NCBI RefSeq assembly: GCF_003014535.1
Contig: NZ_PYGD01000004.1
Span: 1-64,000, forward strand
Reading direction: 5' to 3'
Source of the DNA: Taibaiella chishuiensis
GTDB lineage: Bacteria; Bacteroidota; Bacteroidia; Chitinophagales; Chitinophagaceae
Length of the DNA: 64,000 bases
The notes beneath the pieces were generated by a model. It worked only from the letters and a program-made list of their open reading frames with translations, made no database searches and had not been told where the DNA came from. This document shows positions 23,959-26,470 of the stretch, one piece after another. Position 1 is the first letter of the stretch, and every line of letters starts with the position of its first letter. Both the position numbers and the translations under genes were made by a program.

Positions 23959-24306
23959 ATGAGTACAACAGAAATGGTAGCTCCGGTAAGTTTTACCGAG
24001 CGTGCAGCGGCAGAGCTGAACAGGCTGCGGGAACAGCCCGATTTCGACCCGGAAATGTTTTTACGTGTAGGCGTTAAAGGCGGCGGATGTTCGGGCCTGA
24101 GTTATGTACTGGGTTTCGATAAAAAAGAAGCCGACGATGTAGAAAGCGAAGTACAGGGACTTAAAGTGATTATGAAAAAGGCCCATGGCCTGTACCTGAT
24201 GGGTATGGAAATAGACTACGGAACCGGCCTGGACGCCCGTGGCTTCATTTTTAACAACCCCAACGCCAGCAGTTCCTGCGGTTGCGGCGAATCCTTTTCG
24301 GTATAA
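23959..24306 (+). CDS. HesB/IscA family iron-sulfur carrier
   Basis: An A-type Fe-S carrier of 115 residues that delivers clusters to target proteins. The three conserved cysteines are visible in KGGGCSGLSYVL (near residue 48) and SSCGCGESFSV at the C-terminus (CxC pair). IscA, ErpA and SufA cannot be told apart from this sequence. 27 bp after the preceding small gene; a lipoprotein gene follows. Confidence 0.93.
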   Translation: MSTTEMVAPVSFTERAAAELNRLREQPDFDPEMFLRVGVKGGGCSGLSYVLGFDKKEADDVESEVQGLKVIMKKAHGLYLMGMEIDYGTGLDARGFIFNNPNASSSCGCGESFSV

Positions 24307-24356
24307 CCTTTTTTACGCCGTTTTTCGTATATTCGGTGTTTAAAATTTCCCTCCGG

Positions 24357-25019
24357 ATGGGCTGGAACAGCATTAAATATTTATTACTCTTGGCAACTCT
24401 TTCGGGTTGCCTTGTTGCTTTGGGGCAAACGAAAAAGACGAAGCCGGTTAAAAAAGAACCGGAAGACAGTTTGAACAGGACCGACGAACGGAAACAGAAA
24501 CAGGGCACCTGGTTTTACCGGCACGAAGCGCTCCGCGGCGAACCGGCATATTCGGAATTCGGCAATTATAAAGACGACCGTAAAACGGGTCGCTGGATCA
24601 AGCTGGACGGCGAAAACCGCCTGGTATCGATCGAGAATTTTTCGCGCGGGGTACTCAACGGCGAATCGCAGTATTACGAAGAGGGCAAGCTGACCTGTAT
24701 CGGCACCTACCGCGGTCTTAACCCCGACAATAAAGTAGACTCGATATGGGTAACCGACCCGCTGAGCGACCAGGAAGTAATGGTGGTGGTACCCAGCGAG
24801 CGCGGTACCATGAAGCATGGCCTATGGCGTTATTACGACGCCCGTACAGGCCAGCTTACCCGCGAAGAAGAATACCAGGTCGACGACCTGATCTTTAAAA
24901 AAGACTTCCAGTATGTAACCCATACCGATAGCCTGCGGCTCAAACAACGTATAGACAATATGCCGCATAACCGCAAGACCAAAAGCCCGGAGCGCAAGGT
25001 GAAAAGCAATATTTACTAA
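24357..25019 (+). CDS. Lipoprotein with MORN-like repeats
   Basis: From the ATG at 24357 the product is 220 residues with a signal peptide and a lipobox ending LSGC. The mature part has beta-hairpin repeats of the MORN/YwqK type: KQGTWFYR, KTGRWIKLDGE, LNGESQYYEEGK, KHGLWRYYDARTG. Such repeats often form elongated scaffolds; no enzyme motif is seen. The frame opens at 24282 inside the iscA-like gene, but the later ATG gives a proper signal peptide. Function unknown. Confidence 0.78.
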   Translation: MGWNSIKYLLLLATLSGCLVALGQTKKTKPVKKEPEDSLNRTDERKQKQGTWFYRHEALRGEPAYSEFGNYKDDRKTGRWIKLDGENRLVSIENFSRGVLNGESQYYEEGKLTCIGTYRGLNPDNKVDSIWVTDPLSDQEVMVVVPSERGTMKHGLWRYYDARTGQLTREEEYQVDDLIFKKDFQYVTHTDSLRLKQRIDNMPHNRKTKSPERKVKSNIY

Positions 25020-25071
25020 ACGCAGGCCGGAAAATAAACAGGACAGAAATGCCATATTTGAAATTTATGAT

Positions 25072-25079
25072 TACCTTTG
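25072..25079 (+). promoter_or_regulatory. Promoter -7 box of the lysA leader
   Basis: TACCTTTG, exact match to TAnnTTTG, 20 bp before the ATG of a 19-codon leader peptide and about 180 bp before lysA. It fits a transcript that starts ahead of the attenuator. Confidence 0.65.
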
Positions 25080-25098
25080 GCCCCGTTCGAATAGAAAT

Positions 25099-25158
25099 AT
25101 GATCAGCATTCCTACAGCAAAACAGATAAAAAAGATAAAGCTTTACCCCGAAAGGTGA
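25099..25158 (+). CDS. Putative lysine-rich leader peptide of lysA
   Basis: A 19-residue open frame, MISIPTAKQIKKIKLYPER, followed by TGA. Four of 19 residues are lysine (codons at 25120, 25129, 25132, 25138), three of them clustered. It lies between a promoter box and a terminator directly upstream of lysA, the gene of the last step in lysine synthesis. This is the layout of a ribosome-mediated attenuator. The last codons form arm 1 of the proposed RNA structure. No homologue comparison was possible. Confidence 0.65.
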   Translation: MISIPTAKQIKKIKLYPER

Positions 25159-25227
25159 GCCGCTGTTTTATTGTAGCCTGAATTCAATAAATACTTGAAG
25201 CTTACCTGGATAGGTAAGCTTTTTTTT
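25140..25227 (+). promoter_or_regulatory. Putative four-arm transcription attenuator of lysA
   Basis: Arm 1 (25140-25148) can pair with arm 2 (AGGTGAGC, 25153-25160) with one bulge. Arm 2 can instead pair with arm 3 (GCTTACCT, 25200-25207) over 8 bp with one G-U. Arm 3 belongs to a perfect 10-bp terminator stem (25198-25207 with 25212-25221) followed by seven Ts. A ribosome stalled on the lysine codons would cover arm 1, free arm 2 to hold arm 3, and allow read-through into lysA when lysine is scarce. Confidence 0.65.
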
Positions 25228-25258
25228 ATGTCCGTTAAAAAAATAAGCAACGCAAAAA

Positions 25259-26470
25259 ATGAGTACATCGATCACCCAACAGCAACTGATCGCCCTGGCC
25301 GATGAATACGGGGCCCCGCTTTATGTTTATGACGCAGAAGTGATGCGCAGGCAATACCGTAAGATGGAAGACGCTTTTAAGGAATGCAATGTAAAGATAC
25401 ACTATGCGGCCAAGGCGCTGACCAACCTGCAGGTACTCCGCCTGTTCCGTGAGCTGGGCGCCGGTCTCGACGCGGTATCCATCGAAGAGGTGAAGATTGG
25501 TCTGATGGCGGGTTTCAGCCCGGAAGAGATCCTGTATACGCCCAATTGTGTTTCGTTTGCAGAGATCGAAGCCTGTGTGGAGCTGGGTGTGAAAATCAAT
25601 ATCGACAACATCTCCATCCTCGAACAGTTTGGCAACAAATACGGCGCCACGGTGCCGGTATGTATCCGTGTAAACCCGCATATCATGGCCGGCGGGCATT
25701 ACAAAATATCGACCGGGCATATCGACAGTAAATTCGGTATATCGATCCACCAGATGCGCCATGTAGAGCGGCTGATCAAATCGTTGAACCTGAAGGTGGA
25801 AGGCATCCATATGCATACAGGCAGCGATATCCTCGATGTGGATGTATTCCTGAACGGCGCAGAGATCCTGTTCGACCTGGCGCTCGACTTCCCGGATATA
25901 CAGTACATCGACTTCGGCAGTGGTTTTAAAGTGGCTTATAAACCCGACGATGTTACCACCGATATTAAACTGCTGGGCAAAAAAATGACGGCGCGCTATA
26001 AGAAATTCTGTAAAGATTATGGCCGCGATATCCAGATCCATTTCGAACCCGGCAAATTCCTGGTGAGCGAATCGGGTTATTTCCTGGCAAAGGTCAATGT
26101 GATCAAACAGACCACGGCTACTGTATTTGCGGGGCTCGATACCGGTTTTAACCACCTGATGCGGCCTACTTTATACGATGCCTACCACCACATCACCAAC
26201 CTGTCCAACCCCCATGGTAAACAAAGGGTGTATACCGTAGTGGGTTATATCTGCGAGACGGATACCTTTGCCTGGGACCGGCCTCTGAAAGAAATAAACG
26301 AAGGCGATATTCTTTGTTTCCACAATGCAGGCGCTTATGGTTTTGCCATGGCCTCTAATTATAATTCGCGGCTGCGCCCTGCCGAGGTGCTGGTCGACGG
26401 CGATAAGGTAAAACTGATCCGCCGGCGCGAAACCCTGGAAGACGTGCTGGCCACACAGGCCGGCTTATAA
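25259..26470 (+). CDS. lysA: Diaminopimelate decarboxylase
   Basis: PLP enzyme that decarboxylates meso-diaminopimelate to L-lysine. The 403 residues have the PLP lysine in VKIHYAAKALTNLQVLR near residue 50, the HTGSD segment near 186, the phosphate-binding IDFGSGFKV near 219, and the C-terminal active-site region CETDTFAWDR and GAYGFAMASNYNSR. Slightly shorter than many LysA proteins but complete. It stands alone behind a leader-peptide attenuator and ends at a strong terminator. Confidence 0.95.
   Translation: MSTSITQQQLIALADEYGAPLYVYDAEVMRRQYRKMEDAFKECNVKIHYAAKALTNLQVLRLFRELGAGLDAVSIEEVKIGLMAGFSPEEILYTPNCVSFAEIEACVELGVKINIDNISILEQFGNKYGATVPVCIRVNPHIMAGGHYKISTGHIDSKFGISIHQMRHVERLIKSLNLKVEGIHMHTGSDILDVDVFLNGAEILFDLALDFPDIQYIDFGSGFKVAYKPDDVTTDIKLLGKKMTARYKKFCKDYGRDIQIHFEPGKFLVSESGYFLAKVNVIKQTTATVFAGLDTGFNHLMRPTLYDAYHHITNLSNPHGKQRVYTVVGYICETDTFAWDRPLKEINEGDILCFHNAGAYGFAMASNYNSRLRPAEVLVDGDKVKLIRRRETLEDVLATQAGL

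Follow-up and report, generated by a model that had tools for sequence, protein, structure and literature searches.

The lysA gene of Taibaiella chishuiensis is preceded by a leader that we read, with a probability of about 0.83, as a ribosome-mediated (leader-peptide) transcription attenuator, which would sense charged tRNA-Lys and control lysA. The support for this reading is purely computational and comprises the parts of the element, their conservation, a set of competing hairpins and a predicted switch governed by the position of the ribosome, which make attenuation the most likely function. Our confidence is tempered by ribosome positions permissive for antitermination that extend past the Lys codons and by the selected nature of the Lys-column evidence from Weeksellaceae. 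The same reading had been proposed from the letters alone (hereafter, the sequence-only reading), and sequence comparison supports it. Coordinates refer to the window, i.e., the whole 64,000-nucleotide stretch of DNA that was analysed, and all features described in it lie on the forward strand.

The gene (25259–26470) encodes a 403-aa diaminopimelate decarboxylase, LysA (NCBIfam TIGR01048 equivalog, 405.4 bits against a cut-off of 297.9), which catalyzes the last step of the lysine pathway. The exact −7 box claimed by the sequence-only reading is present as TACCTTTG at 25072–25079, matching TAnnTTTG, which we take to be the Bacteroidota −7 consensus; no TTTG was seen by eye at the usual −33 spacing. 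The claimed 19-codon frame with four lysine codons was also found. It starts with ATG at 25099, encodes MISIPTAKQIKKIKLYPER and ends with TGA at 25156–25158 (25099–25158 as a whole), and its putative control Lys codons (25120–25140) are codons 8 (25120–25122), 11 (25129–25131), 12 (25132–25134) and 14 (25138–25140). Ile codons are equally frequent (4 of 19).

Folding of the window leader gave three mutually exclusive hairpins, 1:2, 2:3 and 3:4, in agreement with the pairings proposed earlier, and 3:4 is an intrinsic terminator. The inner arm of segment 1 (arm 1, GCTTTACC, 25140–25147) pairs with arm 2 (GGTGAGC, 25154–25160), which contains the leader stop codon and can instead pair with arm 3 (GAAGCTTACC, 25197–25206). 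Arm 3 serves both as the antiterminator partner of arm 2 and as the 5′ arm of the terminator, the 3′ arm of which is arm 4 (GGTAAGCTTT, 25213–25222). Segments 1, 2 and 3 exceed the arms described in the sequence-only reading: a second block of segment 2, TTATTG (25168–25173), pairs either with the Lys-codon region in hairpin 1:2 or with CAATAA, a second block of segment 3 (25185–25190), in hairpin 2:3. The outer part of segment 1 (25112–25125), assigned from the minimum free energy fold and z-score, overlaps leader codons 5–9 and has 25163–25176 as its partner. The 3:4 terminator itself stands as proposed, but its description as a perfect 10-bp stem with seven Ts does not, because the stem (25197–25222) has 11 pairs, one of them G-U, around a 4-nt loop, and the tail (25220–25227) has eight Ts, five of which lie past the stem. 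The terminator lies 31 nt before lysA.

In the mechanism that we propose, transcription would begin just past the −7 box, giving a leader RNA of about 140 nt, and a ribosome would follow the polymerase and translate the 19-codon leader. When Lys-tRNA is ample, the ribosome would get to the stop codon inside arm 2 and cover this arm, so that arms 3 and 4 would form the terminator and transcription would stop before lysA. When Lys-tRNA is scarce, the ribosome would stall on the Lys codons and disrupt hairpin 1:2; segment 2 would then pair with segment 3 ahead of the synthesis of segment 4, no terminator would form, and lysA would be transcribed.

Both states were predicted by folding: a ribosome stalled on the control codons is expected to free segment 2, and one that completes the ORF is expected to cover it. 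For this profile, a ribosome footprint of A-site +12 nt was assumed, the RNA was masked accordingly at each codon, and the pairing of arm 2 with arm 3 was scored before arm 4 was complete. In the four Taibaiella leaders, the in silico probability of 2:3 was 0.82–1.00 at every Lys codon and, past the last of these, dropped to 0.38–0.55 at a distance of two codons and to 0.00 at three, consistent with the earlier claim that stalling on the lysine codons would favour the antiterminator. With the ribosome on the stop codon, the window RNA formed 3:4 (0.98). Permissive positions extended beyond the Lys codons, to codons 2–15 in the window and codons 1–15 in T. koreensis and T. helva; since these spans include codons before the Lys region, the profile sets only the flip point in these species. 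At locus L083, the fourth Taibaiella leader, the permissive span was codons 6–12, which brackets Lys 6, 9 and 11. When the full-length window RNA was considered at equilibrium, 3:4 beat 2:3 when the ribosome was stalled at Lys 11, 12 or 14. Given that 3:4 is favoured once arm 4 is present, the switch would have to be kinetic and act during transcription, as in the trp attenuator. The untranslated leader was predicted to adopt 2:3 rather than 1:2 in T. koreensis and T. helva (0.98 and 1.00, respectively), and termination without translation may therefore be leaky in these species.

Some of the single features are at chance level, but the combined arrangement exceeds chance. Lys richness was dropped as stand-alone evidence, because the composition of the A-rich frame accounts for it: four Lys in 19 codons are expected in about half of the shuffles of the window frame (P = 0.49), and the corresponding P values in the three Taibaiella relatives were 0.13, 0.05 and 0.27. 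The −7 box was dropped likewise, since the window contains 42 copies of TAnnTTTG and chance predicts 41.5. The 190-nt region as a whole folded slightly better than its shuffles (z −1.3, with 23 of 200 as good), and the z-scores of the individual window hairpins were −3.8 (1:2), −2.4 (2:3) and −5.1 (3:4). The complementarity of arm 2 to arm 3 in the window had a z of −4.2 against shuffled spacers, and a rerun with a 10-nt arm gave −3.5, with 9 of 1000 shuffles as good. We also surveyed the 400-kb contig around the window, taking ORFs of 120 aa or more as crude gene calls and considering the 150 genes with an upstream gap of at least 120 nt. A terminator-like hairpin near the start was found for 19 of them, two of which also had an amino-acid-enriched leader, and lysA was the only one of the 150 with both a Lys-rich leader and a terminator.

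The sequence-only reading had named conserved Lys codons and compensatory changes in the arms of lysA upstream regions of related Chitinophagaceae as support; a Lys leader and one compensatory pair were seen within Taibaiella, and the element is not general in Chitinophagaceae. The genus sample consisted of four Taibaiella genomes, including that of the window, and the LysA of the window is 86–87% identical to those of T. koreensis and T. helva. The Lys leader, the alternative arms and the terminator are kept in all four despite diverged leader peptides (MISIPTAKQIKKIKLYPER, MSLITSIKTIKTKKPYLYG, MTLIANIKTIKTKKPYLYG and, at L083, MFQALKQIKAKLTSPGEPYFIV), which have 3–4 Lys codons in frames of 19–22 codons before lysA. 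Our survey script flagged three of these leaders; that of L083, with three Lys codons, fell below the Lys threshold and was counted by eye, and its frame extends beyond arm 2 to a later TAA. The −7 box is exact in three of the four, with an unchanged position in T. koreensis and T. helva, and has one mismatch in L083. Arm 2, GGTGAGC, does not vary among the four genomes, each of which also has TTATTG and CAATAA. The three hairpins are of similar strength across the genus (−13.4 to −15.7 kcal/mol for 1:2, −12.6 to −15.7 for 2:3 and −13.7 to −15.3 for 3:4), and the z-scores of arm 2:arm 3 complementarity are −4.2, −4.8, −4.4 and −2.6. The consensus fold of the alignment is the antiterminator 2:3, containing the CAATAA block, plus a second inner helix. 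Covariation support is thin: both sides changed in 1 of 26 consensus-fold pairs (one joining segments 1 and 4), a few changes were one-sided, and the covariation term of the four-sequence alignment was slightly unfavourable (+0.56). In the terminator, one pair is fully compensatory, being A-U in the window (GCTTACC/GGTAAGC) and G-C in L083. No Lys leader was seen before lysA of G101, the nearest family member (LysA 71%).

A script was used to score 315 lysA upstream regions (307 distinct) from Bacteroidia, and among these a convincing Lys leader with a terminator was found outside Taibaiella in Weeksellaceae only. We rejected the possibility that the element is general in Chitinophagaceae or Bacteroidia, as the script flagged only 6 (L030, L035, L092, L119, L168 and L186) of the 208 regions left after subtraction of Taibaiella (4), the Weeksellaceae of the contig collection (32), L272–L340 (69), L048 and L200. 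In L030, L035 and L092, the frame picked up by the script lies partly within the end of the upstream gene, and we treat the flags of L119, L168 and L186 as chance.

In Weeksellaceae, Lys-rich lysA leaders occur in many species (L052–L081 and L272–L340), and some related species are without them. A Lys leader was found in 31 of 70 regions sampled from 106 LysA-bearing genomes (30 best matches and 40 hand-picked, exact duplicates being counted with their twin). The contig collection, which overlaps this sample, had Lys leaders at 22 of 29 Chryseobacterium-labelled loci and at the one Halpernia locus (Halpernia humi), and at neither of its two Elizabethkingia loci. One region, L335, has a terminator-like hairpin upstream of lysA and no evident Lys leader.

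The 38 distinct Weeksellaceae leaders fall into two peptide types, one resembling MQNFKQNKTGKKGAVKFSKVWNI (27 distinct) and the other containing a KGKKFFSK-like core (11 distinct). In the second type, 54 of the 55 cells in columns 8, 13, 15, 16 and 20 encode Lys, with Lys codons that toggle between AAA and AAG at the third base only, whereas most other columns vary at all positions; these five columns were selected post hoc out of nine in which Lys is the majority, and Gly 14 is equally constant (11 of 11). In the first type, third-base toggling of Lys codons was 0.019 against 0.161 elsewhere, one column has 14 Lys and 13 Arg among the 27, and another has 24 Lys and 3 Gln. The complementarity of arm 2 to arm 3 was stronger in 24 hand-picked representatives (mean z −1.73) than in 17 controls (−0.34; Mann-Whitney P 0.005). 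Individually, 8 of the 24 representatives, including the 4 from Taibaiella, and 4 of the 17 controls were below P = 0.05, and complementarity was weak in the 20 non-Taibaiella representatives (mean z about −1.3). At L325, arm 2 (GGTCTG) is unlike that of other Weeksellaceae, yet it matches its own arm 3 (CAGACT), and this antiterminator may possibly have been re-made.

A LysA tree of 67 hand-picked rows places Taibaiella and Weeksellaceae across a branch with 100/99 support. As the tree separates both groups, we prefer two origins of their leaders; the same branch disfavours common descent of both elements together with their gene, and transfer of the leader alone between the groups is conceivable. 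The tetrapeptide TSIK is found in the leaders of both L002 and L285. On balance we lean toward a scheme in which lysine-specific attenuation arose at least twice in Bacteroidota, before lysA genes of different descent, and in which the Lys-codon region of Taibaiella doubles as the outer strand of hairpin 1:2, so that slowing of the ribosome anywhere along this region would favour antitermination. A further placement in the tree concerns the family of the window: the LysA of L109 (genome G033) groups with the 16 Weeksellaceae LysA rows (100/99), branching outside them (97/62). This position hints that lysA was transferred between Chitinophagaceae and Weeksellaceae. The survey script flagged no leader upstream of this lysA.

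The genome of the window also has a His-rich leader before hisG (MTQNLHLHWHHHTHPPGKQVLLCRF, 6 His in 25), with a strong terminator and a TACCTTTG box placed as at lysA (L341, 1340–1480; contig C1 of the same genome, about 969422–969562). It is probably a classical his attenuator. We rejected it as a quantitative control, because its 2:3 complementarity, tested as for lysA, did not exceed chance (z +1.3). No lysine leader was seen before dapA of this genome, as judged at the better of two dapA matches.

Other explanations of the lysA leader have to be weighed against attenuation. The hairpin could simply terminate transcription of the upstream gene or act as an insulator, with the Lys-rich frame being a by-product of A-rich DNA. 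Such an origin would agree with the co-directional upstream gene in the window (24282–25019) and its relative, likewise co-directional, in L002, with the non-significance of Lys richness alone and with the 19 of 150 contig genes that show terminator-like hairpins near their starts. In L083, however, the element is kept although the upstream gene is divergent, on the opposite strand, so the hairpin there ends no upstream gene's transcript. This explanation also does not account for the conserved arm 2 and TTATTG/CAATAA blocks or for the repeated occurrence of Lys leaders upstream of lysA in Weeksellaceae, and we consider it improbable.

Alternatively, the short frame might be untranslated and the RNA might bind a metabolite or a protein, either as a lysine riboswitch of an undescribed type or as a leader bound by a regulator. 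Three competing hairpins would suit a riboswitch too, and in two Taibaiella species the antiterminator is the predicted fold of the free RNA even with no ribosome present. This possibility nevertheless seems very improbable, given that the five Lys columns of Weeksellaceae vary at the third base only and that neither the window nor nine related loci gave any Rfam family at its gathering threshold. As the sequence-only reading had stated, a lysine riboswitch is not evident here: neither it nor a T-box was among the five Rfam matches at E ≤ 1 in 24950–25300, and the sub-threshold match with the most bits in this interval was Phe_leader, itself a leader-peptide attenuator (21.8 bits against 55). 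A translated leader could also act by nascent-chain stalling on free lysine or a related compound, in the manner of TnaC or SpeFL, instead of on empty Lys codons. The core KGKK..FSK shared by Weeksellaceae leaders, including the constant Gly 14, goes beyond single Lys codons and would fit such a mechanism, but abundant lysine would then turn on the biosynthetic gene when it is unneeded, and the core is missing from the Taibaiella leaders. By eye, part of the core also coincides with TTCTCT, a sequence similar to arm 3 (CTCTT), and this part may be kept as an RNA arm; we give nascent-chain stalling hardly any credence.

The attenuator that we propose resembles the classical leader-peptide attenuators, which are those of the proteobacterial his, trp, phe, thr, ilv and leu operons, in having a short ORF with codons for the end product, 1:2/2:3/3:4 segments, a stop codon inside segment 2 and a terminator just before the biosynthetic gene. 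It differs from them in its lysine specificity, its Bacteroidota-type −7 box, the lack of a Shine-Dalgarno sequence evident by eye, and a segment 1 that takes in the control codons through the outer helix. The lysine riboswitch (L-box), a large aptamer that binds lysine directly, likewise exerts RNA control over lysine genes, but its aptamer was undetected at the lysA leader. Bacteroid-trp RNA (RF01692), presumably a trp leader, with Trp instead of Lys, had no covariance model match at E ≤ 0.001 in the whole genome of the window. This Rfam family is, like the lysA leader, a Bacteroidetes cis-regulatory RNA (Weinberg et al. 2010, PMC2864571). A study of Flavobacterium psychrophilum inferred leader-peptide attenuation for amino-acid operons (PMC9723704); its main text contains neither lysine nor lysA. 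SEP5 of Sinorhizobium meliloti is a proposed leader peptide that precedes an aspartate dehydrogenase gene (PMC10117765); it shares Lys codons with the lysA leader, having three alongside six Thr codons, but, as described there, is neither lysine-specific nor located before lysA. The conclusion of an earlier study groups lysine with riboswitches and his, thr and phe with attenuators (PMC1262725). A search by exact phrase for a lysine leader peptide or attenuator matched no paper, and no such attenuator appeared among the matches listed, as judged by title and the start of the abstract; Lopatovskaya et al. (2010) could contain one. The mechanism is classical, and its lysine specificity is apparently undescribed.

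If true, a lysine attenuator would fill a gap, as RNA control of lysine genes is known from the riboswitch, and some Bacteroidota would gain a lysine-responsive switch at a gene without a visible riboswitch. The element, represented by four Taibaiella and 38 distinct Weeksellaceae leaders, would be suited to the study of transcription-translation coupling in Bacteroidota.
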